Source of the DNA: Candidatus Zixiibacteriota bacterium
Lineage (GTDB): Bacteria > SM23-81
NCBI GenBank assembly: GCA_030628225.1
Contig: DAOVRJ010000040.1
Location: 1 to 13,278, forward strand
Direction: 5' to 3'
DNA: 13,278 bases
The translations under genes were made by a program, and so were the position numbers. The notes beneath the pieces were generated by a model that saw only the letters and a list, made by a program, of their open reading frames with translations, did no database searches and was not told the origin of the DNA. Below, piece by piece: positions 1 to 13,157 of the stretch (its first letter is position 1; every line of letters starts with the position of its first letter).

Positions 1-774
1 GAGCACATATTTGGCTTTGTCCAGGTCGTAAGAGCCCAGGATCTCCGCCTGCGTCTTTGTCTTGCGCTTGAACAACCCCATCACTTTCTGGGGCTCCCGG
101 GGCAGGATCAGATCGTAGATGTTGGGGTCGATGTCCAGATCCTGCACCCCGCCGCCGCCCTTCCACTCCTCGGCCTGCGCCTCCACCACACGGAAATCTC
201 CCAGACCGCCGGCTCCGTAGTCGTCCTGCAGGCCGGCGGCGATGGTGTACTTCCACGCCTTGGTAGGCTCGCCGATGTCCGCCAGGGGCACCGAGAAGTG
301 CATGATGTTCTTCTCGTTGTCCACCTGGCAGATGGCCCCGGTGGTCATCTTGTTTCCCTGGGCGTCCATGATCTCGCAGGTATCGCCGGCCATAAATATC
401 TGCAGCTCGCTGGGACACTCCAGGTAGGCCCCGGCGTTGTGCCACAACTGGTCGTTTCCGCCCTCGGCGGTGTCCACGGCGATGGCCACGAAGGTCAGCC
501 GGTTGCCCACGTGCCAGGGGTCCACTAAGTCTCGAAAGCGCAGCTCAACCAGGAAGTGTCCCTCATCCCGGGAGATGATGCAGCTCAAGATGTCCGCCTG
601 GCCGCCCTGGCCGAAGGATTCGTGGGTGGGATAGACGTAATCGCCGTCGCCGGTGTCGTCAGCGGAGGGGTCCTCCGCCTGGAAGAGAGTTTGTTCGCCG
701 GCCGCCGGTAGGGCGCCGAGGAGCAGGGCCAGGCCGGTGAGCAGCAGCGTCTTCCACATTCTCGTCGGGATCAT
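1..774 (-). CDS. Secreted protein with glucodextranase C-terminal-like (DOMON-type) domain, 3' end outside the window
   Basis: The reading frame stays open to base 1, so 258 codons are visible and the C-terminus is missing. The N-terminus is a signal peptide: a short basic start (MIPTRMWK), a Leu-rich core, then a signal-peptidase-I-like PAAGE. The mature start (DPSADDTGDGDYVYPTHESF), followed by an LRFRDLVDPW stretch, resembles the C-terminal SLH-like binding module of glucodextranases (Glucodextran_C family). That module in known proteins accompanies alpha-glucan-degrading enzymes or surface glycan binding. No catalytic domain is visible, so this may be a stand-alone binding protein. ATG at 774 has AAAGGA-type purines about 8 nt upstream, and ATG at 759 is an in-frame alternative. 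It starts 14 nt after the preceding stop, so it is co-transcribed with the EB_dh lipoprotein. Family assignment is from recalled motif similarity. Confidence 0.75.
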   Translation of the reverse strand, partial: MIPTRMWKTLLLTGLALLLGALPAAGEQTLFQAEDPSADDTGDGDYVYPTHESFGQGGQADILSCIISRDEGHFLVELRFRDLVDPWHVGNRLTFVAIAVDTAEGGNDQLWHNAGAYLECPSELQIFMAGDTCEIMDAQGNKMTTGAICQVDNEKNIMHFSVPLADIGEPTKAWKYTIAAGLQDDYGAGGLGDFRVVEAQAEEWKGGGGVQDLDIDPNIYDLILPREPQKVMGLFKRKTKTQAEILGSYDLDKAKYVL

Positions 775-788
775 CTTCCTTTTTCCTT

Positions 789-1799
789 TTATGGTTTTAT
801 TGTGTCCTCAAAGGGTATCGCTTCACTGGCCGATAGCACCTCATTGCCCAGGCTGGGCTCGATGACCGGATGCTGCACGTATGGCGGATATGATTTCTGC
901 GGATCGTAATTATCGGTGAACACGCCCGTGCCATCGTCCTCGCCCAATTCCGAATCTGTGGCCAGCAGGTCATCAGCCCATCCCAGAGGATTTGTACGCC
1001 CCGCGCACCATCTCCAGACGTTCACAGAGCCATCGGCAGGATGGTTAGCCGCGGGGAAGTAAGTTGCCCCACCCAGCTCGTCCCAACCAGCAGGAGCCTG
1101 CTCCGTGGGGAAGAGGAACATGACCATGTCCTCCTGGCCCTCTCGAGTCCAGGTGAGCTGGCCGTCGAAATACCACATGTTCCTGGCCATATCTATACTG
1201 CCCGTGGGATCGGGCCAGGCCAGTTTGAAGTAGATTCTCGTGCTGTCATGGACGGCTATGAGATAGGCTTCGCTCAACCCGTTATCTCCGCAGACCCCGG
1301 TAATCTCCAGTTGGGTCTCAGGCACGCCATCGAAGACATTCCAGGTCTCATCGATGCCGTCCCCGTCGATGGCCGGTGCCGGCTTCCCGTTGGCCGCCAG
1401 GTCGTAGACGCTGACCGTGTCCGGCGAGTCGTAGTCGGTGTCGGACCAGACCAGATGGATAACGTGCTGGCCGTTCCAGATGGAATCCGAGGCGTCGGAG
1501 ATATACAGGGCGAAGACCAGCTCCTGGTCCACAACGAAAGCATGATCGTCATCGTGCCCGGTGTTCAGATAAGAGGCCAGCTCGAGGGCGTAGTAGTTAC
1601 CCCACATCTGAGCCTTGGCCTCTACATCGGCCCGGCTCCCCGAGGGGCAACTCAGCACGTATCCGGGCACCGCGTCTCCGCTTTGCCAGGTCTTCCACAG
1701 GGGAGAGACGGAATAAATTTTGTCCGAGCATGCAACGATGAGCAGGACACTCAGAAGGGCGAGGAACATCAGTAAAATTAGCAGTGGGGTTTTCTTCAT
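789..1799 (-). CDS. Lipoprotein with ethylbenzene-dehydrogenase-type (EB_dh) haem-binding domain
   Basis: This is a 336-residue lipoprotein. A basic start (MKKTPLL), hydrophobic core and lipobox I-V-A-C put the lipidated Cys at residue 24. Residues about 140-280 hold the hallmarks of the cytochrome c-552/DMSO-reductase-like haem-binding family (EB_dh): AIDGDGIDETW, then YFKLAWPDPT, a hydrophobic MVMFLFP strand, and VWRWCAGRTNPLGWADD. Known members bind haem b as gamma subunits of molybdenum enzymes, or occur as orphan periplasmic proteins. No molybdoenzyme is visible here. Residues about 57-117 (SRADVEAKA, LASYLNTGHDDD, FALYISD) resemble the part that usually closes the EB_dh fold at the C-terminus, but here it comes first. 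ATG 1799 gives a clean signal peptide, with AGGAG 11 nt and GGGGAG immediately upstream. A GTG at 1811 is the alternative. Haem binding is not proven because the axial ligands cannot be assigned by eye. Confidence 0.82.
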   Translation of the reverse strand: MKKTPLLILLMFLALLSVLLIVACSDKIYSVSPLWKTWQSGDAVPGYVLSCPSGSRADVEAKAQMWGNYYALELASYLNTGHDDDHAFVVDQELVFALYISDASDSIWNGQHVIHLVWSDTDYDSPDTVSVYDLAANGKPAPAIDGDGIDETWNVFDGVPETQLEITGVCGDNGLSEAYLIAVHDSTRIYFKLAWPDPTGSIDMARNMWYFDGQLTWTREGQEDMVMFLFPTEQAPAGWDELGGATYFPAANHPADGSVNVWRWCAGRTNPLGWADDLLATDSELGEDDGTGVFTDNYDPQKSYPPYVQHPVIEPSLGNEVLSASEAIPFEDTIKP

Positions 1800-1858
1800 C
1801 TCCCCGATCACTCCTTTCCAAAAAGAAAATTCACAGACGTTATTTGATAGTTTTTTTC

Positions 1859-2010
1859 CGCCTTTTCCGTGATTTCCATTTCTTCCATGATTGTTTTAGT
1901 CTTTTTTCCGTTTTTCTCCGTCTCTTCCCTTTCTTCCATGATTATTTTGGCCTTTTTCCGTCCCCTTCCGTCTCTTCCATTCCTTCCATGATTACATTTA
2001 TTCCATGATT
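1859..2010. repeat. Approximately 50-bp imperfect tandem repeat, purine-rich on the coding strand
   Basis: The 11-mer CTTCCATGATT begins at 1882, 1933 and 1983, and a shortened TTCCATGATT lies at 2001-2010. The repeat unit is therefore 50-51 bp (1882-1932, 1933-1982), with a degenerate half unit at about 1859-1881 and a truncated one to 2010. Within each unit the pyrimidine words TTTTTCCG, CTTCCG and TCTCTTCC recur, so the minus (transcribed) strand is almost all purine (GGAAG, ACGGAAAAAG). The array fills most of the gap between the CBM48 lipoprotein and the EB_dh lipoprotein and contributes the TAA stop of the former. I see no hairpin or T-tract terminator in it. Confidence 0.8.
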
Positions 2011-2419
2011 ATTTGATCACGATGACCGAGTTGTATCCCCCGAAGCTGTCGTCCACCCGCTCGGCGTTGTTGGGGTCGTGCTTCCAGACTACCCCGCCAT
2101 CCAGGACGAACTTGTACTCGTACCGGCCGGGTTTGAGGGGGATGACGATCTGCCAGAGGCCTTTTTCGTTCTTGGTCATGGGGTCGATGGTGGGGTCGAA
2201 GGGGCCGATGACGGTGCCGCCCCAGTTGTTGAACACGCCGGCTAAGTTGACTCGCTGGGCCGCCGGAGCGTCGAATTGAAACAGAACTCCGCCCTCCACC
2301 TGGTGGGGCGGCGGGAGACGGTCCTTGATGGCGGTCATGGCAGTGCAGGCCAGAAGGCCGCAGCACAGAAGCAGCATCATAAAGGCCGAGAAATTGGGTA
2401 ATCTGATGTGCGGTCTCAT
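2009..2419 (-). CDS. Small lipoprotein with a single CBM48 (AMPK-type) glycogen-binding domain
   Basis: This is a 136-residue protein. The lipobox L-L-A-C at residues 22-25 predicts a lipid anchor at Cys25. After a short linker, residues about 42-136 form one AMPK-beta/CBM48-type domain: VNLAGVFNNW, a beta strand, GRYEYKFVLDG, VWKHDPNN and GGYNSVIVI. Residues equivalent to those that contact sugar in AMPK beta CBMs are present (Trp66, Lys103, Trp112, Asn130). No catalytic domain follows, so it should act as a surface or periplasmic alpha-glucan-binding lipoprotein. Its ATG abuts the TAA of the upstream gene (TAA-ATG, no spacer). The likely SD, GAGGTG, lies 9 nt before the ATG inside the last codons of that gene, implying translational coupling. 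The stop codon falls in the adjoining tandem repeat. Confidence 0.9.
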   Translation of the reverse strand: MRPHIRLPNFSAFMMLLLCCGLLACTAMTAIKDRLPPPHQVEGGVLFQFDAPAAQRVNLAGVFNNWGGTVIGPFDPTIDPMTKNEKGLWQIVIPLKPGRYEYKFVLDGGVVWKHDPNNAERVDDSFGGYNSVIVIK

Positions 2420-4639
2420 TTAAAAATTCACCTCGATGGTCACCGTAAGGCGGTGTTCGTTCTCCAGAGCGTTTTCAGCCCGGCGGACGAGTTCCAGTTT
2501 GTACTCGTTGTCTCGACCGTAGTTGGGCACATCGCTGCCTTCATCTATCTCCTGGACCAGAAAGTCCACGCGCCCCTTGGATCGCCTGTATCGGTCGAAC
2601 TGGTCGATGGGATTGACGCCCCAGGCCAGGCCTAACCGCACCTTCGGGGAGGGATGATAGGCCACCTCCAGATACGGATTTCCGTAGTAATTGCGGAAGT
2701 AAAGGACCTGATCAGTGCTCAGGGCGTAGATCTGAAAACGGCAATTGGCCCCGGCGGTGACATGCCTGGTGAGGGGAAATGCCGTTTCCAGGATGATCTC
2801 GCCGGTCTCCAGATAGAGGTTCTCCCACACCAGATCGCCGTCGCCAAGGGCCAGCTTCTCCATGGTGTAGCGATGATACTTGCCGTCCAGGCTGCATCGC
2901 CAGTCGCCCATGGTCTTGAAGGCCAGGATGGACTGCAGCGTCAGGGTCTGTTTTACGTTCCTCAGGTACAGGTCGTGAAAGTTGTTCAGATACCCATACC
3001 GGTTGTAGCGCGGGTACTCGTAGAAAGCCCAGTGCTCCCCATAGATGAACCCGTCGATGATCTTTTGGTCTTCAAGCATGGCCAGCAGGGTGATTTCCGG
3101 TTCTTCCAATAGCCAGACAGGAGGTGCCTGCCAGCGGGCCCGGCATTTGAGCAGAGTGATCTGAGGCTCATATTTCACCGGATCGTCGATCTCCTGCCCC
3201 AGATTGGTGTGCACCTGTCCCTTCTCCAGCTCGTAGCTGATCTCCATCTGGAAAGCCTCGTTAGGCCTGGCCAGGATGCCTCCCACGAACCGGTTCACAT
3301 CGTATTTCTCGTTGAAGATCACGGTGCTGGTGTCGTACTCGACGGCTCCAGTGGAGGATTTGAAGGTGTGCACGTCCGATGTGGCCTTCAGGGAGGGATA
3401 GCGGCGCAGGGCCACCTCGCCGTAAAAGATCAGGTTTTCCGAGAGCAGGGGAACCCGCAGGTCAGCGGCGTAGGTCTTGTCGGCCTCGCGGTCCACCTCG
3501 AATTCGGTGAAGTGGAAGTAGTGCTCCACGTTCCAGCTTCTGGTATCGCTGCCGGTGGAATCATACCAGTCATGATAGAACTGACGCCACCACGCGCTGG
3601 GCAGAAAGGTCCAGTTCTTCTCGTTGACCCCGGCGGCGATGGTTCGCTCGTCCAGGACGGGCACCGCCTGGACCGGCTTAACCCTCAGGAATGAGATACC
3701 CACAGAGGGGAGCTGGCCAACCTTTAAGCGCAACCCCGTGCGGTCCACCTCTTTCTCATCGTCGGCGTAGAAGGCCAAGAGCTCGGTGCCCTCATCCCCG
3801 ACCAATTTGGCCATGCCCAGGGTGTGGCTTGAGATGGCCGAGGAGGTCAGCACGATGCCCTGGGTGTTCTCCCCGAAGGGGTCCTGCGTGTCTCCGATCT
3901 TGCCCACCAGGGCCAGGGGATCGTCGAACTCGACCAGCAGCTCGTTGTGATAGGGCAAGATCCTGAAGCGGGCCGCATCTACCATGATGTGAGCCCGGTG
4001 TAGCTTCAAGGTGGGATCATCGTCGATGGTGTTGATCCTGGTCTCGACCCAGGCGGAAACCCCCGAGCTAACCTCAACGGAGATGTCCAACCTGATGTCG
4101 TGCTCCGGCTTGATCAGGCCGAAGCGGTTATCGTCCTCCGGGTCACGCCGGGTGAGCAGGGCGCTGACGTACCGTCCGCTGACATAGGGCAAGGCGCTTT
4201 TCTCCACAGCAGCCTCTACGGGCGCTGCCTTGCCCTTCTCGGGGATCACGATCTTCAGCCTTTCTCCGGAGCCCGTGAGGACCAGGATTGCATTCTCGCC
4301 GCCGTAGCCGTCGGGGCCTGTGTCGTGAGCGTTGGGATCGATGGTCCAGTTGCCGTCGATGACGAACTTGTACTCGTGGCGCCCGGCCGACAGAGACAGA
4401 GACAGGCGCCAGACGCCATCGTCGCCCTGTTTCATCAAGTTTGCCTGCGCGTTCCAGCCGTTGAAGCTTCCGGCTAAATACACTGCCCCGGCGCCGGGGG
4501 CCAGGCAGGAGAAGACCACCTGGCCGTTCTCTACCTCGGGGGCCAGATCCTCCTGGGCCCGGAGAGCATGGGCGGGGATCAGAAGCCCCACAAGCGCCAG
4601 CAAAGTCATCCCCAATCTGGCAAGTCGCTTTGTGATCAT
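2420..4639 (-). CDS. Outer-membrane beta-barrel protein with N-terminal CBM48 glycogen-binding domain
   Basis: This is a 739-residue protein. Its signal peptide (residues 1-28) ends ALRA before QEDLAP. Residues about 37-122 are a CBM48/AMPK-type domain: VYLAGSFNGW, GRHEYKFVIDGNW and YGGENAILVL, with the sugar-contacting equivalents Trp62, Lys91, Trp98 and Asn116 all present. A charged, Pro/Ala-rich linker (about 123-150) leads to about 590 residues of alternating polar/hydrophobic strands rich in Tyr, Trp and Arg, ending TVTIEVNF. This matches an outer-membrane barrel with a terminal aromatic BAM signal. The inferred role is binding or import of alpha-glucan at the outer membrane, with the CBM on the periplasmic or outer face. 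ATG 4639 has GGAG six nt upstream. A stronger AAGGAGG sits further up, at the upstream gene's stop 24 nt away. I do not recognise a named barrel family, and this is not SusC-like since no plug or TonB box is seen. Confidence 0.88.
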   Translation of the reverse strand: MITKRLARLGMTLLALVGLLIPAHALRAQEDLAPEVENGQVVFSCLAPGAGAVYLAGSFNGWNAQANLMKQGDDGVWRLSLSLSAGRHEYKFVIDGNWTIDPNAHDTGPDGYGGENAILVLTGSGERLKIVIPEKGKAAPVEAAVEKSALPYVSGRYVSALLTRRDPEDDNRFGLIKPEHDIRLDISVEVSSGVSAWVETRINTIDDDPTLKLHRAHIMVDAARFRILPYHNELLVEFDDPLALVGKIGDTQDPFGENTQGIVLTSSAISSHTLGMAKLVGDEGTELLAFYADDEKEVDRTGLRLKVGQLPSVGISFLRVKPVQAVPVLDERTIAAGVNEKNWTFLPSAWWRQFYHDWYDSTGSDTRSWNVEHYFHFTEFEVDREADKTYAADLRVPLLSENLIFYGEVALRRYPSLKATSDVHTFKSSTGAVEYDTSTVIFNEKYDVNRFVGGILARPNEAFQMEISYELEKGQVHTNLGQEIDDPVKYEPQITLLKCRARWQAPPVWLLEEPEITLLAMLEDQKIIDGFIYGEHWAFYEYPRYNRYGYLNNFHDLYLRNVKQTLTLQSILAFKTMGDWRCSLDGKYHRYTMEKLALGDGDLVWENLYLETGEIILETAFPLTRHVTAGANCRFQIYALSTDQVLYFRNYYGNPYLEVAYHPSPKVRLGLAWGVNPIDQFDRYRRSKGRVDFLVQEIDEGSDVPNYGRDNEYKLELVRRAENALENEHRLTVTIEVNF

Positions 4640-4663
4640 CGTTTTCTCCAGAAGAAGTCCTCC

Positions 4664-6199
4664 TTAAAATGAGATTTTTGTAACAAAAAAGAGCTTGTGG
4701 TCGATTTTGCGGATGTTGTCGGCGATGTCGTTGTCATTGACCAGATCGTTGTCGGTATGCCAGCCGCTGCCGAACTCGATGAAGATCTCCGCATTGGAGG
4801 CAAGAAAATAGCCCACGTGCGCCATCAGGGTGGACCACTCGTCCACCCGGGAGTCAACCAGGGCCATTCGGGAATAGACCTGCCACCTCTCGCTGATGTT
4901 GGCCTTGACCTCGGTGCCGAAAATGGTTCGCTCGCCGAACCGCCGCGATCCGCCGTAAACCCGGTCTTTCTGACCGATGTCCTTTTTCTTCACCTGAAAC
5001 TTGACCAGGGCGATCTCGTTCTCCGACTGGACCTCCGCGAAGAAGCTTTCCGTGCTCTCGGAAAGCTTGAACTCCCCGCGGATGGGATCGTGGTTGGTGT
5101 ACCAATCGTAGTTGATTCTGGCCGTGATGCCCCCCTTGAACTCGATGTACAGCTCCGCCTGGCTCCAGCGCACCCGATAGGCCCGCCGCCTGTCCTCCCA
5201 CACCAGGAAGGTGCGTTTCTCGGGATCGTATGACGTCTCGTAGCCATCGTGCCGCAGGGTCAGGGTGATGGCCTTGCGGGGAACGGGAATGACCGCCTGG
5301 AGAAAGTAGCCCGTCTGATCGAAAGAGCTGCCCCAGTCGGTGGGGTGGAACTGGTCGGAGAGGTGGTCGTGAAACTCCCTGCCGTAGTCCCGATAGTGTC
5401 CCAGAAAGCTTATAGAGCCCAGCCGCAGCCCCCGGGCCTCTAGTTTGAAGGCCGATCGATTGCCGGCCCGGCCGTCGATCCAGCGTCGTTGGGGCTGTTT
5501 CTCCAGAGAGGGGTCCCAGCTCTCGGCGTATTCCAGGGTGAGGTCGGCGTTAAGGACGGTGATTTTCAGATCGCCAGCGATGACCCGGTTGAAGGATGAG
5601 TCCGGATGGACGTTGTCATCCGACCAGTCCCTCTGCAGGAAGGTGGTGCCCAGGTCAAGATGGCGGCTCAGTCGCTTTTCAAACCGGCCGATGTATACGT
5701 CGTCGCCCTCGCCGTTGCGGGAGATCATCAGGGCGCCGCGAGCTCCTTTTCTCTCCAGCATATCAAGCCGCAGGCCCTGAGCCCGGCCATAGTCGCCCCT
5801 GGCCTCGCCGCTGATCAAGCCCAACAGATATTCGCTGAAGGAGTGCCGCCACTCGTTGCTGAACAGGACCGCCTCCATGCCCCAGCGTTTGAGCTGGATG
5901 TGATTCTCCCAGCAGTGAAAGTTCTCCGGCTTGAGCACGTTCTCGCCGTTGGCACCCACCTTGAAAAATGTCTCCACCCAGCTCGTGGGTTTGCTGTAAA
6001 AGCGGAGCTCAAAGTAATGTTTGATATAGCCTAAGTTGCCACCGTGGGAGTCGCCGGGATTGTCCTGGAGCTGCTCGTAGTTGAGCTCGTAGAAGCCGCT
6101 CATGGATGGGCCGGCCAGAGCTGGGATGGTGGCCATGGTTGTCAGGAGCAAGGCGAGAGCCAGAGCTCCGCCGATCTTCACGGCCTCGTGTTTGCGCAT
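4664..6199 (-). CDS. Probable outer-membrane beta-barrel protein, family not recognised
   Basis: This is a 511-residue protein. From ATG 6199 the signal peptide is textbook: MRKHEAVK, a long Ala/Leu core and cleavage after IPALA (about residue 29). The mature part has regular amphipathic strands with many Tyr, Trp, Arg and Asp/Glu (for example YIKHYFELRFYS, LTLEYAESW, QAVIPVPRKAITLTLRHDGY). It closes with KLFFVTKISF, a terminal Phe typical of barrel signals read by BamA. Size and texture fit a porin or transporter barrel. An in-frame TTG at 6223 has GGAG seven nt upstream and could be the true start, adding eight residues before the signal peptide, so this start is uncertain. The next gene (CBM48 barrel) begins 24 nt after its stop, so both barrels are probably made from one transcript and may work together. 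Confidence 0.8.
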   Translation of the reverse strand: MRKHEAVKIGGALALALLLTTMATIPALAGPSMSGFYELNYEQLQDNPGDSHGGNLGYIKHYFELRFYSKPTSWVETFFKVGANGENVLKPENFHCWENHIQLKRWGMEAVLFSNEWRHSFSEYLLGLISGEARGDYGRAQGLRLDMLERKGARGALMISRNGEGDDVYIGRFEKRLSRHLDLGTTFLQRDWSDDNVHPDSSFNRVIAGDLKITVLNADLTLEYAESWDPSLEKQPQRRWIDGRAGNRSAFKLEARGLRLGSISFLGHYRDYGREFHDHLSDQFHPTDWGSSFDQTGYFLQAVIPVPRKAITLTLRHDGYETSYDPEKRTFLVWEDRRRAYRVRWSQAELYIEFKGGITARINYDWYTNHDPIRGEFKLSESTESFFAEVQSENEIALVKFQVKKKDIGQKDRVYGGSRRFGERTIFGTEVKANISERWQVYSRMALVDSRVDEWSTLMAHVGYFLASNAEIFIEFGSGWHTDNDLVNDNDIADNIRKIDHKLFFVTKISF

Positions 6200-6239
6200 T
6201 GCTGGTTTTCCAAAAAGTGTCAAGGGATCTCTCCCGGAA

Positions 6240-6250
6240 AGCTGTCAGCT
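6240..6250. promoter_or_regulatory. 11-bp perfect palindrome in the gap before the barrel gene
   Basis: AGCTGTCAGCT is a perfect inverted repeat (AGCTG-T-CAGCT) in the 70-95-nt gap between the NYN gene stop (6295) and the barrel gene start. Its size and position would suit a regulator site or a small mRNA hairpin. I see no convincing -35/-10 pair beside it. The site is too short to exclude chance. Confidence 0.25.
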
Positions 6251-6294
6251 AAGGTTCTTGGTAATTCCCTTGTGTATTACGGCTTTCTCTGGAC

Positions 6295-7071
6295 TCACTT
6301 TTTCCCGGCTGCGCCGCTCAGTTTGGTGACGATGTACGTTCCCCCGGCTTTGGGATCCCGGGTGATCTCCACGATGCCGTGACTTTTAGCGTCCTCCAGA
6401 AGGTCACCGAAGCTGGAGTACCCGTAGCTCTGCTCGGTGAAGGAGGGCTGTTTGCGCTTCATGGTATCCTTGATCAGGGAGGAGTACAGCACGTCCTTAT
6501 TTTCGCGGATCAAGGCATTCACGGTGGAGACCAGAAATTTGAAGACCTCCGCTTTATCGGCGGGAAAAGTCCCTAATGTCTGTGACTTGGTCTGCCCACT
6601 CCTCAGGTCGTCGTAGAAGATGAACTCGTCGCAGTTGTCGATTAAAAGGTTCGAGCAGGACTTGCGCACGCCGATACCGATGACCGATTTGTCGTTCTCG
6701 CGCAACTTTGAGACCAGGGGGGAAAAATCGGAGTCGCCGGAGAGGATCACAAAGGTGTCCAGGTGTTCCTTGGTGTAGCACAGGTCCATGGCGTCAACAA
6801 CCATGCGGATGTCGGCGCTGTTTTTCCCGGTCATCTGCCGCTTGGGGATGTCGATGAGCTCGATGCCCGCGGCGTGGAGTTTTTCTTTGTACTCGCCAAA
6901 GTGACTCCAGTCGGCGTAAGCCTTCTTGACGATAATCTTGCCCTTCTCCAACAGCCGCTCCAGGACCAGCCGGACGTCGAACCGTTTCCGGCGAGAGGCC
7001 CTCAGGCCCAGGGCGATGTTGTCGAAGTCGATGAACAGAGCTAAATTTTTCTCTTGATTTGTTTTATTCAT
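6295..7071 (-). CDS. NYN (PIN-like RNase) domain protein with C-terminal OST-HTH/LOTUS domain
   Basis: This is a 258-residue cytoplasmic protein with no signal peptide. Residues about 9-158 form a NYN/LabA-type PIN-like nuclease domain: LFIDFDNIA (Asp15, Asp17, Asn18), KNSADIRMVVDAMD (Asp87, Asp93, Asp96) and ILSGDSDFSPLV (Asp113, Asp115). The acidic set expected for metal-dependent RNA cleavage is present. Residues about 165-252 match an OST-HTH/LOTUS RNA-binding winged helix (VLYSSLIKDTMKRKQPSF, YGYSSFGDLLEDA, GGTYIVTKL). This NYN plus OST-HTH order is a known bacterial combination, presumed to act in RNA processing. ATG 7071 is preferred because AAGG lies eight nt upstream. An in-frame GTG at 7095 is possible. 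It sits between genes for outer-membrane proteins on the same strand, with 70-95 nt gaps on either side. Confidence 0.92.
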   Translation of the reverse strand: MNKTNQEKNLALFIDFDNIALGLRASRRKRFDVRLVLERLLEKGKIIVKKAYADWSHFGEYKEKLHAAGIELIDIPKRQMTGKNSADIRMVVDAMDLCYTKEHLDTFVILSGDSDFSPLVSKLRENDKSVIGIGVRKSCSNLLIDNCDEFIFYDDLRSGQTKSQTLGTFPADKAEVFKFLVSTVNALIRENKDVLYSSLIKDTMKRKQPSFTEQSYGYSSFGDLLEDAKSHGIVEITRDPKAGGTYIVTKLSGAAGKK

Positions 7072-7145
7072 GAAAAGCGCCTTCTTTCGATTCACTATCT
7101 TTTGTCAGCAAGATGGAAAGGGTCGGCATCAACAGCGCCTTCTCC

Positions 7146-8051
7146 TCAGTATATCAGCCCCACCGTTACCCGGTAGGAGTTGTCCATCCGCTGGTGGTTG
7201 ACCAGGGCGAAGTCCACCTTCCAGTGGTCGGCCTGGACCCCTACTCCGGCACTCTGGCGATCCTGAGCCGTGCCCACCCGGACGGCATAGGCATTGAAGA
7301 ACCAGATCTCTCCTCCGGCATGAAAGCGAAAGTCACCGAAATCGCCTGTCAGGGAGGCCAGGTCGGTGGTAAGAATGACCGTTTCCCGGAACACGTAAGC
7401 CGCTCCGAGGTGGTATCGCCGGGAGATGAGGTCGGGATTGGTGGTGGTGCTGAGCATGCTCATCTTCGGCTCGTTCAGGTTGCGGGCTGAGAGGCCCAGG
7501 GTGAGGTTGCGTCGGAACTGCAGCAGCAGGCCCAGGTCGACACCCCATGCCGACTGGGCCCCCTCGTAAGCCGGGTCGTTGTACCGCTCGTAGCCCGGAG
7601 CGTCCAGCCGGAAGTGCTTCAGGTTGACCCCGGCGCTCAACGGTCCCAACCCGCCCCGGGCCAGAGAGAGGATGAAGGTGTTCTCGCTGAGCACGTCCTT
7701 TAAGGCGGCGTTCAGCCAGCCGAGCCCCAGAGACACGAATCCCAGGTCCGGAGCCTTAAAGGCCAAGTAGCTCACCTGGAAATCGGGCACATCGAACATC
7801 CAGGCCCGGGTGCCCATGAGGCGGATTCCCTGCATGCGAGTTAAACCGGCGGGATTCCAGTAGATGGCGTTGGCGTCGTCGGCGATGGCCACGAAGGCGC
7901 CTCCCAGGGCCAGGGGCCTTGCTCCCACGGCAACATCTTCGAAGCCCGCCTGGCAGACCCCAGCAGACAGCAGACAGCCGACAGCTAACAGCGTGCCGAT
8001 TGCGGTGATCCTGCCTCTCATGGTGGTGTGCGTCGCGTGAATCATGATCAT
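7146..8051 (-). CDS. PorV/UPF0164-family outer-membrane protein
   Basis: This is a 301-residue protein. A signal peptide core follows MRGRITAIG and cleavage is likely after GVCQA. The mature N-terminus has the family's signature: GARPLALGGAFVAIADDANA followed by IYWNPAGL (residues about 43-70), a pattern shared by PorV, PorQ and UPF0164-type FadL-like barrels in FCB bacteria. The rest is amphipathic strands ending VTVGLIY, with a terminal Tyr. PorV itself shuttles type IX substrates to the cell-surface attachment complex. Here the protein directly follows a secreted protein with a FlgD-like C-terminal domain, which suggests a partner or surface-assembly role (inference). Start choice: ATG 8051, ATG 8045 (GGTGA seven nt upstream) and ATG 8021 (best signal peptide but no SD) are all in frame. 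A 36-nt gap separates it from the upstream gene. Confidence 0.85.
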   Translation of the reverse strand: MIMIHATHTTMRGRITAIGTLLAVGCLLSAGVCQAGFEDVAVGARPLALGGAFVAIADDANAIYWNPAGLTRMQGIRLMGTRAWMFDVPDFQVSYLAFKAPDLGFVSLGLGWLNAALKDVLSENTFILSLARGGLGPLSAGVNLKHFRLDAPGYERYNDPAYEGAQSAWGVDLGLLLQFRRNLTLGLSARNLNEPKMSMLSTTTNPDLISRRYHLGAAYVFRETVILTTDLASLTGDFGDFRFHAGGEIWFFNAYAVRVGTAQDRQSAGVGVQADHWKVDFALVNHQRMDNSYRVTVGLIY

Positions 8052-8087
8052 TTCACCATCTTTTCCTTCGGCCTGCTAAGCCGTAAA

Positions 8088-10274
8088 TTATCGGATGACT
8101 CCCACCCCCCGGGCCAGCTTGGCCAGGGGCAGCTCCTCTCGCTCGCTCTTAGCGTAGATGAAGACGAAGTAGAAGCCAAAGGAAACGATATCGCCCTGGG
8201 CGTCCCGGCCATCCCAGATTAGGTTGTGCCCGCCCCGGGTGAAATGCTTTTCCTCGGCCAGGATTCTGGTCAGCTGCCCGGTGATGTCGTAAATCTCGAT
8301 GCGCAGCAGGGCAGCGGTGTTCAGGGAAAACTGGATGGAGAGGTCGTCATACAGGCCATCTCCATTGGGGGAGAATGGGTTTGGGTCAAGGTGGACATCG
8401 TCGATGACGCTGGCTACCTCGCCGGAGACGCCGGGATCCACGAAGAGGCCGTAGATGCCCGTCTGGGTGATCTGGGCCTGGACGATGTTTGCCGCCGGGT
8501 CCACACGCCCCCCGGTTCGCGCCCAGCGCTGGGTTCCCTCGTTCCAGTTGTAGAGGCGCAGTTGGCTCTCGTTGCCCGACACCTGATCCTGGGTGTAGTG
8601 GAAAGTCAGCCCCACGGGTTTTGTGAAAACCTCTGTTCCTTTGTCCGGCAGCGAAATCCTCCGGTACAGTCCGGTGGGCGTAAGGGGGCCGTTAGTAGCA
8701 TAGGGAGGCGAGGCCGTGTTGGCCGAAGGCGCCGTGAAGGTAGAGGGATCCGGGATGGCGATGGAGATATGTCTCCCTGCTGGGAGAATTCCCGGGGGAA
8801 CCTCCAGCATGGTGCCGTCGGGGGCGAAGACGGTGATGGTGTCCGGCTCCTCGGGGACAACCTCAGCCCAGGACACCTCCTGGATGGCCGGTGGGGCGAA
8901 GACGATCACCACGGTGTCCATGTCCGCTGGCGTGATTGGCACCCTGGTCCCGTAGGTGCCATCTTCGGCCTGAATGAAGAAGTAAACCGAGTCGGGGATA
9001 TCTGCCAGCCACAGCTGGGTGCCGCTGATGTTGGCCATCCTCACACAGGAGGCCTGCTCCACATCACCCTCCGGGATCACGTACACAGAGTCCATATCCT
9101 GGGCCGTTTCCACGTAAAAGACGACCACGCTGTCCAGGGTGCCGATGGAGCTCTGCTGCCCGATGCTGGTCTGGTCGGACACGTCGGCCAGCACGGTGAT
9201 ACGATCCAGGCCGGCCACGGAGGACTCCAGGATTACCGAGCTGGGCAGTTCCTCGAACAGGATGGAGGGGGGAACCTGATCCAGGCTTTCCATGAGAATG
9301 TAATCGGCGTACTGGCTTAAGTCAGTTTTATCGCCTCCCGTCGACCAGTCGCCCATGGAGGGGTAGTGGCCCAGCTGGGCGTCGGTGGGCACAGTGTCGT
9401 ACGCGCCCCGGCCGGGTTGGGTACACCAGGCCTCCAGGGAGATTACCGGCGGCTCCACATTCTCCCCGTCTTCATCGTAGACGGCGTCATAGTCGATCCC
9501 TAAGGCCCGCAGGGGAATCTGGAACTCCACGAACTTGTTGGGCCCTGAATAAGGTCCCTGGTCCCGGTTGGGAATGCCGTCGTCTCCGATAATGGTGAAA
9601 AAGCCCGGCTCGAACTCGGGATAATAGCTGTCCACCGAGTCCTGGGTGATCTCATTCCACCATTGGTCATCAACGTCCCAGTGATACAGCTTGAAATCGT
9701 TGGAGTGGTGGTCGAACCAGGTGATGAAGTCCGGGCGATGCTCGTGGAGCAGCTCCTCGTTATTGTTCCACGGGTCGGTGTAGCCGCTGGGTGAGGCCTC
9801 GCTCTGGTTGCCGCCAGTAGGCGTCCTATTCACGTCGATGACCACCCCGACCTGTGTGCTCCAGTAGCCAAATCCTCCGCCCTGCGCGGGCAGGCCATCG
9901 GTGTCGGTGTGTACCAGGCCGATGTAGAGATAGAGCATATCGTTGGTGACATACATCTTGCCCATCTCCATCGGATTGGCGCTATAGTCGTTCTCCGGGC
10001 CGATCCAGTGGTTCCAGTTGTCCTCGATGGGAGCGTCGCCGATGCCGTTGTTCCACTCCGACCAGATGGGGGCCAGCTCCTCGGTGGCCGGGTCATAGTC
10101 GTTGTCGATGGCCGCCAGGTACTCGTCCACATCCTCGGTCTGGGGGTCGTCGAAGTCATTTGACCCGTCTACCACGATGTTTTTGCCATACTCCTCCGAA
10201 TACTGGGCCCAGGCAGGCCAGGCCAGCAGAAGGCCGGTGAGGAAAAGGGCAAAACAGGATCTCCAACTTCTCAA
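8088..10274 (-). CDS. Secreted multidomain surface protein with DOMON/CBM9-like, ZU5-like and FlgD-like domains
   Basis: This is a 728-residue protein from a probable TTG start at 10274. That start is preceded at 9 nt by GAGAGG and gives a clean signal peptide (MRSWRSCF, Leu-rich core, cleavage after AWPAWA). The open frame extends to an ATG at 10376, but that would overlap the upstream gene by 80 nt and bury the signal peptide. Residues about 30-340 are acidic, Trp-rich and resemble a DOMON/CBM9-like binding region (KMYVTNDMLYLYIGL, VGVVIDVNRTPTGG). Residues about 350-480 look Ig-like. Residues about 490-615 resemble a ZU5-like fold (EVPPGILPAG through GIYGLFV). The last 104 residues contain DPNPFSPNGDG, LRIEIYDITGQ, LIWDGRDAQG and a terminal GVGVIR. 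This is a FlgD-Ig-type C-terminal domain common in FCB exported proteins. The inferred role is surface glycan binding. Confidence 0.85.
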   Translation of the reverse strand: MRSWRSCFALFLTGLLLAWPAWAQYSEEYGKNIVVDGSNDFDDPQTEDVDEYLAAIDNDYDPATEELAPIWSEWNNGIGDAPIEDNWNHWIGPENDYSANPMEMGKMYVTNDMLYLYIGLVHTDTDGLPAQGGGFGYWSTQVGVVIDVNRTPTGGNQSEASPSGYTDPWNNNEELLHEHRPDFITWFDHHSNDFKLYHWDVDDQWWNEITQDSVDSYYPEFEPGFFTIIGDDGIPNRDQGPYSGPNKFVEFQIPLRALGIDYDAVYDEDGENVEPPVISLEAWCTQPGRGAYDTVPTDAQLGHYPSMGDWSTGGDKTDLSQYADYILMESLDQVPPSILFEELPSSVILESSVAGLDRITVLADVSDQTSIGQQSSIGTLDSVVVFYVETAQDMDSVYVIPEGDVEQASCVRMANISGTQLWLADIPDSVYFFIQAEDGTYGTRVPITPADMDTVVIVFAPPAIQEVSWAEVVPEEPDTITVFAPDGTMLEVPPGILPAGRHISIAIPDPSTFTAPSANTASPPYATNGPLTPTGLYRRISLPDKGTEVFTKPVGLTFHYTQDQVSGNESQLRLYNWNEGTQRWARTGGRVDPAANIVQAQITQTGIYGLFVDPGVSGEVASVIDDVHLDPNPFSPNGDGLYDDLSIQFSLNTAALLRIEIYDITGQLTRILAEEKHFTRGGHNLIWDGRDAQGDIVSFGFYFVFIYAKSEREELPLAKLARGVGVIR

Positions 10275-10283
10275 CGGTAAAAT

Positions 10284-10289
10284 CCTCTC
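10284..10289 (-). promoter_or_regulatory. Ribosome-binding site that decides a TTG start
   Basis: On the minus strand GAGAGG lies 9 nt before TTG 10274 and just after the TGA (10299-10297) of the substrate-binding protein gene. It is the only SD-like site in the 22-nt gap and fits the start that yields a normal signal peptide. Confidence 0.55.
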
Positions 10290-10296
10290 ATCTTGG

Positions 10297-11559
10297 TCAA
10301 TCGGATCTCCCCAGCACTTCTTTGTTGATCCGCCGGACGGCGTCGTCCAGGGCCTTTTGGACCGATTTGGTCCCATCTAGGGCCGCCTGCATCTCCGGGT
10401 TGATGATGTTCTCCAGCTCATCGTAGTCGGGGATGGGGGGCCTGGGGATGGCCGTCTTCATCTGCTCGACGAAGATTCGCAGATAAGGGTGTTGCTCGAA
10501 GTCCAGGTGTTTCTCCGCCTGGATGTTCACCGGGATCTGGCCCAGCTCGTTGCACCATCTGGCCTGTACGGCCTCGCTGGCCATGAACTTCAGGAATTCA
10601 AGAGCCTCTTGTGGGTGCTGGCAACTGCGGAAGATGATCAGGTCATTGCCGCCGACGTTGGTGGAGGTGCCCGCCGGGCCTTCGGGAATGAGGCCCACCC
10701 CAAAATCGATCCCCGCCGCCAACAGGCTTTTGACAGCCCACGGTCCGCTGAATATCATGGCATACTTGCCGTTCTGAAAGCCCATGTCGCCTCGCACCCC
10801 ACCGGCCCGCCAGCCACCACCCTCGATCTTGTGCTTGCCATACAGATCCACTTTCAGTTGAAATGCCTGAACGCCCTTTTCCCCGTTGAGCACACAACTT
10901 GTGCCATCCTCGCTGAGGAATTGCGCCCCGAAGGTGTTGAAGAAGGGAAAGGTCCACCACAGGGAGTTGCGCATTCCGAAGCCGAAGACGCCCTTTTGCG
11001 GATCGGTGAGCTTTTTGCCGAAGGCGATGAACTCGTCCCAGGTTCTGGGAGGTTTCTCGGGATCCAGGCCCGCCTGGCGAAAGAGGGTCTTGTTGTAGAA
11101 CAGGCACAGCCCGTTGACCTGTTCCGGCATGGCGTAGGTGATCCCCTCTACCAGGCAGCTGCTCAGGGCCACCGGGAGCAGCTCGCCCCTGATCTCGCCG
11201 AAGCCCAGCGTGTCTAAGTTGACCAGGGCGTTGCGGGTGGCCAGCTTGGGCACGAAGGAGCCGTCCACCCGGGCGATGTCCGGTGTGGTGCGGGTGGCCA
11301 GAGCGGTGAGGATCTTCGGCTCTGCTCCCACAAAAGGCAGCCGGGTGGCCTTGATGGTCACATCGGGATGGCTGACCTGGTATTCGGTCAACAGTTCCTG
11401 AAACAGGGCGTTTTCCTGGTCGTTGTAGGTCTGCCAGATGGTCAGGGTGATGAGGCCCTCTTCCTTTTGTCCGCCGCCGCAGGAGATGAGCAGAGCTGTG
11501 AGGATGAAAAGACTCATTGCAAATTGTACATTGCAAATTTTAAATATTAAATTTTTCAT
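10297..11559 (-). CDS. Sugar ABC transporter substrate-binding lipoprotein (family 1)
   Basis: This is a 420-residue lipoprotein. The lipobox L-I-S-C places lipidated Cys at residue 27, followed by GGGQKEE. The mature protein has the family 1 solute-binding pattern: LTIWQTYNDQEN at the start, then HPDVTIKATRLP, TPDIARVDGSFV, GLCLFYNKTLFRQAGLDP followed by TWDEFIAFGKKL, and a C-terminal-lobe GKYAMIFSGPWA with PEGPAGTSTNVGGNDLIIF. Such proteins bind mono- or oligosaccharides (maltodextrin, glycerol-3-phosphate and others) for an ABC importer. The ligand cannot be read by eye, but the CBM48 neighbours favour an alpha-glucan oligosaccharide. No permease or ATPase gene is in the window. ATG 11559 has AGAGG five nt upstream. 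The frame also opens at ATG 11595, which would misplace the signal peptide. It appears to be the first gene of the envelope cluster, with its stop 22 nt from the next start. Confidence 0.93.
   Translation of the reverse strand: MKNLIFKICNVQFAMSLFILTALLISCGGGQKEEGLITLTIWQTYNDQENALFQELLTEYQVSHPDVTIKATRLPFVGAEPKILTALATRTTPDIARVDGSFVPKLATRNALVNLDTLGFGEIRGELLPVALSSCLVEGITYAMPEQVNGLCLFYNKTLFRQAGLDPEKPPRTWDEFIAFGKKLTDPQKGVFGFGMRNSLWWTFPFFNTFGAQFLSEDGTSCVLNGEKGVQAFQLKVDLYGKHKIEGGGWRAGGVRGDMGFQNGKYAMIFSGPWAVKSLLAAGIDFGVGLIPEGPAGTSTNVGGNDLIIFRSCQHPQEALEFLKFMASEAVQARWCNELGQIPVNIQAEKHLDFEQHPYLRIFVEQMKTAIPRPPIPDYDELENIINPEMQAALDGTKSVQKALDDAVRRINKEVLGRSD
11514..11556. repeat. AT-rich direct and inverted repeat inside the signal-peptide codons
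   Basis: CATTGCAAATT occurs at 11515-11525 and 11529-11539, a 14-bp period. Next to it is an AT-only imperfect palindrome (AAATTTTAAATATTAAATTT). Together they encode most of the start of the substrate-binding lipoprotein (NLIFKICNVQFAM) and are far more AT-rich than the rest of that gene. Confidence 0.55.
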
Positions 11560-11651: not shown

Positions 11652-11744
11652 CTAAGGGATTTCTGCTTGTTCCTCTCGAATAATCCTTTTCATCATTGGG
11701 ATGAGGACTTCAAGATAATCTATATAATCGCGTGCTTGTTTCAT
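11652..11744 (-). pseudogene. Probable truncated HEPN (HepT-like) toxin remnant, 30 codons
   Basis: The ATG at 11744 overlaps the TGA of the MNT antitoxin gene by four bases (ATGA), exactly where a HepT toxin gene begins in MNT-HEPN pairs. The product begins MKQARDYIDYLEVLIPMMKR, which resembles the first helix of HEPN/DUF86 proteins. It then runs IIREEQAEIP and stops at a TAG. Full HepT proteins are roughly 100-150 residues and carry an RX4-6H RNase motif. No such motif appears here or in the sequence after the TAG before the next gene. It may be a decayed toxin, an internally deleted one, or an unrelated short coupled ORF. The remnant call rests on position plus about 20 weakly similar residues. 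Confidence 0.45.
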
Positions 11745-12043
11745 ACAAAAACAACCTCTTTCAATATACGTTGTCCGATCCTTGGTTTGAGAGCATCTTT
11801 CATCACCAAGTCGACTTTGATCTCCAGGAGGTCGCTCAGGTAGTTTTCCAGCTCGATGAACTTCAGAAGACCGGGTGTCTCCTTGAAAACAACCAGGATG
11901 TCAAGATCGCTCCCTTTCCCTTGTCGCTGATGTATATATGAACCAAAGAGCCCCAGCGATTCCACTTTGTAGCGTTCGCTAAGCAAGGGAAGTTGCTCGC
12001 GCAGTACGTTTATGATCTGCGATATATTTTTTTCCTGTTGCAT
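11741..12043 (-). CDS. MNT-domain nucleotidyltransferase, MntA-like antitoxin
   Basis: This 100-residue protein is essentially a minimal nucleotidyltransferase domain. LGLFGSYIHQRQGKGSDLDI gives the GSX10DXD motif (Gly34, Ser35, Asp46, Asp48), and a third acidic residue is Asp78 in IKVDLVMKDAL. The C-terminal KPRIGQRILKEVVFV is also typical of the family. Characterised MntA antitoxins AMPylate a Tyr of the HEPN toxin HepT and so inactivate it (type VII toxin-antitoxin). All the residues needed for transfer are present, so the enzyme looks intact even though the toxin position after it holds only a short stump. ATG 12043 is chosen (AAGAGA about seven nt upstream). A TTG at 12070 is in frame but unnecessary. 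The stretch is AT-rich compared with the downstream operon, consistent with mobile accessory DNA. Confidence 0.88.
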   Translation of the reverse strand: MQQEKNISQIINVLREQLPLLSERYKVESLGLFGSYIHQRQGKGSDLDILVVFKETPGLLKFIELENYLSDLLEIKVDLVMKDALKPRIGQRILKEVVFV

Positions 12044-12083
12044 GCTTATTCTCTTTTCATGAATTGACAATGAATGAGATATG

Positions 12084-13157
12084 TTACTTTAATAACACCA
12101 ACTTTCTCATATCGTAGAGATTTGCTCCTGTTGTTAATCGACAGAAGTAGATGCCACTCGCTACTGCGCGTCCAACATCATCTCTCCCATCCCAAGCAGC
12201 CTGATATCCGCCCGGGTCCTGGATATTATCTACCAGTGTTTTCACTTCCTGTCCCAGAATGTTATAGATTCTTAAAGTAGTACGGCGCAATCTTTCCTCC
12301 GAATCTATTTCTGGTACAGAGTAACCAATTACGGTCGTTGAATTGAATGGATTGGGGTAGTTCTGATAAAGCTGGAAGGCTTTAGGCATCACTACTTGAT
12401 CATCATCGTCTACCTTCACCACATCTAGTTCAGAAAAGACCTTCACCTCATCAAAATTGGCATAGGTAGCGTATGCACAAAAACCAAGGTAGTGATGACA
12501 TACAGATTCTGATAGATAGACACACAAGTTTAGATAAGCCCAAGTTAAATAATGGCCATCAGGACCAGGATAAATCATCCAATTGACTGGCTCCTCCTCT
12601 TCTTCTGGCCAGACCTTGAAGTAAATCTGAGGTGGACGTTGGTTTACTGTATCTGACTGACCTATCTTGAAGTAATACCAGTTGTTTATCTCCAGATCAT
12701 AGGGAAGATAGGCAAAATAAGGAGTATTGATAAGTGCATCGCTAAGGAATAGCCCTTTCTTATGATCAAGGTAAGGCGAGTAATAACAAGCAATATTACC
12801 ACCATAGCAAAAGCCCACCTTTGGATCAAAGAAATAAGGACTTGAATTAGGGAAGAAGTCAGTGACTTTAATCTTCACCTGAGCAGTAAAGGCCACAGGT
12901 GGAGGATCATAATCGACAGCAAAAACATCTGCTGGCAATGTGCTATCTCCGCTCCAATGCCGGTATACTTTGGTGCTTCCATCCATCACTACCTTCCAGG
13001 TGGTATCAGAATATAGCGAGGCCCACGGAGATCCCCATCCTTGAGCAGGTCCTCCGACGGCGTTTTGCTCAAAATCATCAAACCAAAGAAGCTCCGCCTG
13101 AGCTAAGTAGGGGAGGAAAAGAACGAATAAGATTCCAGATAGCATAATTCTCGTCAT
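12084..13157 (-). CDS. Secreted protein with lectin-like body and type IX-like C-terminal sorting domain
   Basis: This is a 357-residue protein. Its signal peptide is MTRIMLSGILFVLFLPYLAQA, cleaved before ELLWFDDFE. Residues about 22-245 look like a beta-sandwich of the concanavalin A/LamG type: FDDFEQNAVGG at the start, many aromatic strands, YATYANFDEVKVFSE at the end, and several Cys. No catalytic residues can be assigned. Residues 257-357 are a classic FCB C-terminal sorting module: FQLYQNYPNPFN, LRIYNILGQEVKTL, AAWDGRDDVGR, ASGIYFCRL and MRKLVLLK. In type IX systems this module directs export and surface attachment. No T9SS machinery gene is nearby. ATG 13157 has GAGAGGG about 8-11 nt upstream. 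The gene is distinctly AT-rich (22 G+C of 60 at 12481-12540) compared with the downstream envelope cluster. Confidence 0.88.
   Translation of the reverse strand: MTRIMLSGILFVLFLPYLAQAELLWFDDFEQNAVGGPAQGWGSPWASLYSDTTWKVVMDGSTKVYRHWSGDSTLPADVFAVDYDPPPVAFTAQVKIKVTDFFPNSSPYFFDPKVGFCYGGNIACYYSPYLDHKKGLFLSDALINTPYFAYLPYDLEINNWYYFKIGQSDTVNQRPPQIYFKVWPEEEEEPVNWMIYPGPDGHYLTWAYLNLCVYLSESVCHHYLGFCAYATYANFDEVKVFSELDVVKVDDDDQVVMPKAFQLYQNYPNPFNSTTVIGYSVPEIDSEERLRRTTLRIYNILGQEVKTLVDNIQDPGGYQAAWDGRDDVGRAVASGIYFCRLTTGANLYDMRKLVLLK

Follow-up and report, generated by a model that had tools for sequence, protein, structure and literature searches.

An alpha-glucan acquisition locus without SusC/SusD, predicted from a Zixiibacteriota contig and conserved across bacterial lineages

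The stretch of DNA analysed here (the window, 13,278 bases) is an entire contig, DAOVRJ010000040.1, of the 2.34-Mb draft genome of a Candidatus Zixiibacteriota bacterium, and every gene in it lies on the minus strand. We consider that it probably represents the outer-membrane half of a conserved locus for the acquisition of alpha-glucan without SusC/SusD. In other words, a porin with carbohydrate-binding modules (CBMs), periplasmic GH57/GH13 enzymes and a Mal-type importer are predicted to act together in place of the familiar pair. The locus is incomplete here because the contig stops at both ends of the window. The genes, numbered g1 to g11 from the upstream end and with domains assigned by Pfam and NCBIfam profiles, are as follows.

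12084-13157, minus strand: g1, a C-terminal domain (CTD) protein, the most upstream gene of the run
11741-12070, minus strand: g2, a stand-alone nucleotidyltransferase (NTP_transf_2)
10297-11559, minus strand: g3, MalE-like sugar-binding lipoprotein of an ATP-binding cassette (ABC) importer (SBP_bac_1 2.7e-45; lipobox LLISC)
8088 to about 10274, minus strand: g4, secreted protein of 762 amino acids with a C-terminus of the type IX secretion system (T9SS) type (CHU_C 8e-6)
7146-8051, minus strand: g5, outer-membrane barrel of the PorV/PorQ family (NF033709 8e-18)
6295-7095, minus strand: g6, NYN nuclease-like domain and LOTUS domain (NYN 2e-38, OST-HTH 1e-5)
4664-6223, minus strand: g7, outer-membrane beta-barrel of an unnamed family, 519 amino acids (AlphaFold model)
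2420-4639, minus strand: g8, signal peptide, AMPK-type CBM48 and unnamed beta-barrel (AMPK1_CBM 7.4e-13)
2009-2419, minus strand: g9, CBM48 lipoprotein with a KxRLPPP linker
789-1811, minus strand: g10, EB_dh-domain lipoprotein, lipobox LIVAC (EB_dh 2.6e-13)
1-774, minus strand: g11, secreted protein with a Glucodextran_C domain, truncated at the end of the contig (Glucodextran_C 1.8e-29)

The original prediction, made from the DNA letters alone, described a co-directional run of envelope genes. The genes it listed are real and all share the minus strand; its list is correct but passes over g6, which lies inside the run. Gaps of 0-36 nucleotides were said to separate most genes, and five of the eight junctions from g3 to g11 fall in that range. 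The successive distances are about 22, 36, 50, 71, 24, 0, 197 and 14 nucleotides, so that three (50, 71 and 197) exceed it. The first value takes the TTG at 10274 as the probable start of g4; the copy in G003, one of the three other genomes in our within-phylum comparison set and a member of the same family but a second genus, aligns from residue 35. By comparison with the G003 copy, g11 is truncated a few residues short of its stop.

Gene order is kept in relatives, both in G003 and in many phyla, and the conservation of the locus across lineages is well supported by sequence comparison. When one genome of each GTDB species was scanned with a g9 alignment, 423 relatives came up in contigs, and 78 loci were fetched. 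By the submitters' labels, the matches include Eisenbacteria, Krumholzibacteriota, Cloacimonadota, Zixibacteria, WOR-3, Gemmatimonadota, Elusimicrobia, Latescibacteria, Neomarinimicrobiota and UBP1. Six-frame profile searches of these loci, with those holding enough upstream DNA as denominators, placed g8 upstream of g9 and on the same strand in 59 of 63, g7 in 51 of 51 and PorV in 42 of 44. GH57 or GH13 occurs in 26 of the 34 loci longer than 15 kb, and an enzyme or a Mal-type ABC gene in 31. Identities of the conserved genes between phyla are about 20-55%. The L073/L099 set brings the parts together on one strand: a CTD-CBM protein, a g4-like protein with Glucodextran_C, PorV, g7, g8, g9, GH57, MalE, MalF, MalG and MalK.

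Anchoring on g7 gives the same picture. Of 386 genomes drawn from across Bacteria, 25 matched a g7 profile, which was far more sensitive than g8 alone; as a query against the same genomes at 1e-30, g8 returned only three distant matches. Among 19 g7-anchored loci, all those whose contig extends far enough have a g8-type CBM48 protein adjoining g7; most have PorV on the opposite side of g7, and in many the run continues with Mal or amylase genes. As g7 itself lacks a sugar-binding domain, this test carries no bias towards CBM48. Some of its loci come from the same species as in the g9 test, and the g7 profile was itself built from copies in the g9-anchored loci.

Within the family, G003 keeps the window order across the end of one contig (C74) and the start of another (C85), with the shared genes at 59-89% identity. 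The former carries a CTD protein, MalF, MalG, a transposase-like gene, the substrate-binding protein (SBP; 87% identical to g3), two g4-like genes, PorV (75%), the NYN gene (89%), a SnoaL-like gene and g7 (80%). The latter opens with the last 32 codons of g7, then g8 (73%), g9 (79%), g10 (59%) and, in the same place as in the window, the g11 copy (sequence between L026:4066 and 4900). Next come a carbamoyltransferase, another CBM48 lipoprotein, a GH57 protein with CBM48 and Glucodextran_C, and MalE, MalF and MalG.

The CBM48 domains speak to the substrate. That of g8 superposes on the glycogen-binding domain of AMPK beta1 (1z0m) with a root-mean-square deviation of 1.3 A, and the g9 profile matches the same AMPK beta glycogen-binding structures. 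In AMPK, W100, K126, W133 and N150 contact cyclodextrin (PMC4032982); read off the alignment, they correspond to W62, K91, W98 and N116 of g8, which are conserved in 49, 45, 43 and 48 of 49 sequences, respectively. The corresponding residues of g9 (W66, K103, W112 and N130) are invariant in a five-sequence alignment. In representative loci, Pfam identifies neighbouring GH57 and GH13 enzymes with up to four AMPK-type CBMs, as well as CTD proteins with CBM20-like domains; the GH57 proteins, by inspection, begin with secretion signals. Together with the relatives of the sugar-binding lipoprotein described below, the CBM48 fold and residues and the enzyme neighbours make alpha-glucan (starch, glycogen or maltodextrin) a well-supported prediction of the substrate class. 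Another locus of the same kind encodes a GH57-like protein that also carries a dockerin and two pullulanase X25 domains (L111:13419-16901).

The lipoprotein g3 matches the MalE (1.5e-18) and GanS (1.6e-20) models of NCBIfam, both under the equivalog cut-offs, and its nearest solved relatives are a set of sugar-binding proteins that includes the acarbose/maltose-binding GacH. The sugar ligand proposed for it is thus supported, in that these relatives do not assign it to a non-sugar ligand. The G003 homologue has MalF and MalG directly upstream (G003:C74:8111-9879), where the window has the nucleotidyltransferase and the CTD protein. Extending the neighbourhood to relatives brings in the importer and enzyme genes that the original prediction expected there: MalF/MalG and an ATPase lie next to the locus, and GH57, GH13, MalE, MalF, MalG and MalK were all found. 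In the window genome itself, a GH57 enzyme ends in Glucodextran_C, the same domain as in g11. The earlier reading is right in outline; on each of the three points that could have told against it (gene order, the function of the neighbours and the ligand of the SBP), the result went the opposite way. Two other loci, L066 (G003:C58) and L067 (G000:C256), hold large SBP-like lipoproteins beside corrinoid-binding-like and methyltransferase-like genes, neighbours which suggest a ligand other than sugar.

The absence of a SusCD pair, as originally noted, was borne out. SusD_RagB (PF07980, the sole SusD model run) matched none of 7 genomes and none of a further 35 locus-carrying genomes, with a positive Bacteroides control. 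No Plug-domain match fell within the loci, and a profile for TonB-dependent transporters (TBDTs), built from four receptors and of uncalibrated sensitivity, had no match in the 78 loci.

What may take the place of this pair are the two barrels g7 and g8, both predicted to fold as outer-membrane beta-barrels of unnamed families. g7 has no Pfam or NCBIfam match. Its AlphaFold model (predicted local distance difference test, pLDDT, 84.8; predicted template-modelling score 0.79) is a large open barrel of about 24 strands by our own count, without a plug domain, and the chain ends in an aromatic residue. In structure comparison its best matches are the PapC/FimD usher barrels (VIA Z 17-19), a likeness that in the models is one of barrel size and not of function, followed by OccK, OprD, LamB, AlgE and TBDT barrels (Z 14-16). 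The g8 barrel matches porins and plug-less TBDT barrels (Z 13-16). The 18-stranded LamB, at Z 14-15 for both, is tied with many porins and does not stand above other barrels. The last residue of g8, Phe739, is invariant in 49 of 49 homologues; a C-terminal phenylalanine is the usual signal for outer-membrane assembly. Because the CBM48 of g8 is N-terminal, and both ends of outer-membrane barrels normally face the periplasm, it most likely lies in the periplasm, where it would serve as a catch behind the pore rather than in recognition at the outer surface. The original picture, in which this part of the locus recognises glucan at the surface, is altered accordingly.

By inspection the N-terminal half of g4 is DOMON/CBM9-like, and it ends in a FlgD/CHU_C sorting domain of the T9SS type. 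Its neighbour g5 scores 65 bits against the PorV_fam cut-off of 90 (a subfamily model), with further matches to TraF_2 (4.9e-8) and PorP_SprF (0.007). SprA, the T9SS translocon, is present in seven of seven genomes tested, and 30 of 43 related loci encode a CTD protein immediately upstream of PorV. Work on Bacteroidota describes PorP-like barrels as anchors of type B CTD proteins (PMC9143113) and PorV-type shuttles as directing T9SS cargo (PMC12618676). Given SprA, this adjacency and the Bacteroidota partner barrels, g4 and g5 are best read as a putative surface protein with its own partner barrel, g5 being a candidate shuttle or anchor for g4. In G003, g4 is duplicated (L060:11866-13476 and 13523-15706); the copies have the N-terminal half in common and differ in their C-terminal parts, and one carries a clearer T9SS type A tail.

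A second arrangement recurs in three genomes (G000:C266, L061; G001:C91, L063; G002:C216, L065). It comprises MalF/MalG where the contig reaches, an SBP, one or two secreted CTD proteins, one of them with a Lamin Tail Domain, a PorV/PorP-like barrel, and a protein with a helix-hairpin-helix and a long C-terminal region. Other substrates may be served in the phylum by the same general combination of an ABC importer, a CTD protein and a PorV-like barrel.

From these parts we suggest how the locus could work. The secreted g4 would leave the cell by the type IX system and be held at the surface by the PorV-like g5; there, g4 and the CBM-CTD proteins would hold glucan. Glucan chains or long dextrins would then pass through the large barrels g7 and/or g8 with no drive from TonB, and the periplasmic CBM48 of g8 and the lipoprotein g9 would catch and hold the chain, giving direction to diffusion. 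Periplasmic GH57/GH13 enzymes with N-terminal signals would cut it, and MalE would pass the maltodextrins to MalFGK for import. We infer the transport and topology parts of this model, and its novel steps, the barrel passage and the CBM48 catch, are candidates drawn from sequence. It is possible, and we propose it only tentatively, that the two unnamed barrel families, one with a periplasmic CBM48 catch, together with the CBM48 lipoprotein form an importer class of their own, which would take long alpha-glucans across the outer membrane independently of TonB and replace SusCD in many uncultured phyla of the FCB (Fibrobacteres-Chlorobi-Bacteroidetes) group.

Several findings weigh against our interpretation of the window. 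The window has no MalF/MalG, no close MalF for g3 was found in the assembly, and the GH57-MalEFG group of this genome lies on a separate contig (C163). The CHU_C match of g4 is below the curated cut-off (26.3 bits against 27), confidence in the g8 model is no more than moderate (pLDDT 76.8), and the periplasmic placement of its CBM follows from the usual topology rule. Furthermore, Plug-domain receptors that could do the outer-membrane step occur in seven of seven genomes, away from the locus; all lie on other contigs, except one in G154 at about 98 kb. This last point feeds the main rival, in which a TonB receptor elsewhere does the outer-membrane passage. The CBM and enzyme proteins of the locus would then be displayed to bind and digest alpha-glucan at the surface, the importer would be that receptor or a general porin elsewhere, and g7 and g8 would be assembly or anchoring barrels of the T9SS kind. 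Such a role would accord with the presence of SprA and with the anchoring function of PorP-like barrels in Bacteroidota, and an analysis of Latescibacteria likewise left the passage of polysaccharide across the outer membrane to non-specific porins (PMC4454575). However, g7 and g8 are distinct from PorV/PorP, with no match to those families, their adjacency is kept beside g9 and sugar importers, and the loci hold no TBDT match. We regard this rival as unlikely.

We rank low, and give very little credence to, the idea that the barrels export or organise a capsule-like surface alpha-glucan that the hydrolases and the ABC importer recycle. Both barrels count AlgE, a polysaccharide exporter, among their structural matches (Z 14-15), but it does not rise above other porins; no recurring glycosyltransferase or synthase was noticed in the loci read, among which no systematic search was made, whereas genes for importers and for secreted hydrolases are found repeatedly. 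Hardly any weight falls on an ordinary loose cluster, in which unrelated envelope genes are adjacent by chance and CBM48 binds some other ligand. Its appeal lies in the NYN, EB_dh, nucleotidyltransferase and carbamoyltransferase neighbours, which are non-sugar genes and vary between genomes, yet five core genes hold order and strand over many lineages and the glucan-binding residues are conserved. The two anchored synteny tests have already largely refuted it.

Outside this core stand three genes added locally, those for EB_dh, NYN and the free-standing Glucodextran_C. The NYN-LOTUS gene g6 was seen at this place only in the window genome and G003; it sits inside an envelope gene run and has no obvious link to sugar uptake. 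DOMON-like domains related to EB_dh bind sugar or heme; g10 was considered as a candidate heme-binding redox subunit, and it was not seen in the conserved core. The nucleotidyltransferase g2 is without a HEPN partner inside the window. In G003, the carbamoyltransferase and a small membrane-protein gene separate g11 from the GH57-MalEFG group (L026:5044-7454), an arrangement not noticed in the other loci read.

Glycan-uptake loci and most of the part families are already known; the new element is the outer-membrane module. With Sus and other SusCD-type polysaccharide utilization loci of Bacteroidota, the present locus shares the clustering of alpha-glucan hydrolases with glycan-binding proteins of the surface and transport proteins of the outer membrane. 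SusD, in contrast, was found in none of 42 genomes, and the loci lack a TonB receptor; they have large plug-less barrels and a MalFGK inner-membrane importer. The enterobacterial maltose system (LamB, MalE, MalFGK, MalS) shares MalE/F/G/K, a porin-type barrel and an extracytoplasmic amylase. It differs from the present locus, which has unnamed barrel families, one fused to CBM48, an added CBM48 lipoprotein, a T9SS-type partner and PorV, and whose enzymes are GH57/GH13 with AMPK-type CBM48. A CTD gene directly beside a PorV/PorP-like barrel gene recalls the T9SS cargo-partner pairs (PMC9143113, PMC12618676), but here it stands in a sugar-acquisition locus outside Bacteroidota and the CTD scores are under curated cut-offs. 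The AMPK beta subunit shares the CBM48 fold and the four carbohydrate-contacting residues, whereas these are bacterial envelope proteins that combine the domain with an outer-membrane barrel by fusion or with a lipid anchor. No description of this architecture turned up in a search of the open-access literature, mainly titles and abstracts, with subscription papers and preprints outside its scope.

Outer-membrane passage of polysaccharides without SusCD has been little studied in uncultured FCB-group phyla such as Eisenbacteria, Krumholzibacteriota, Zixibacteria, Cloacimonadota and Latescibacteria. For this step the locus supplies specific candidate genes, and it gives a context to two unnamed families of outer-membrane proteins. 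It could also act as a genome marker of starch or glycogen use in these phyla.

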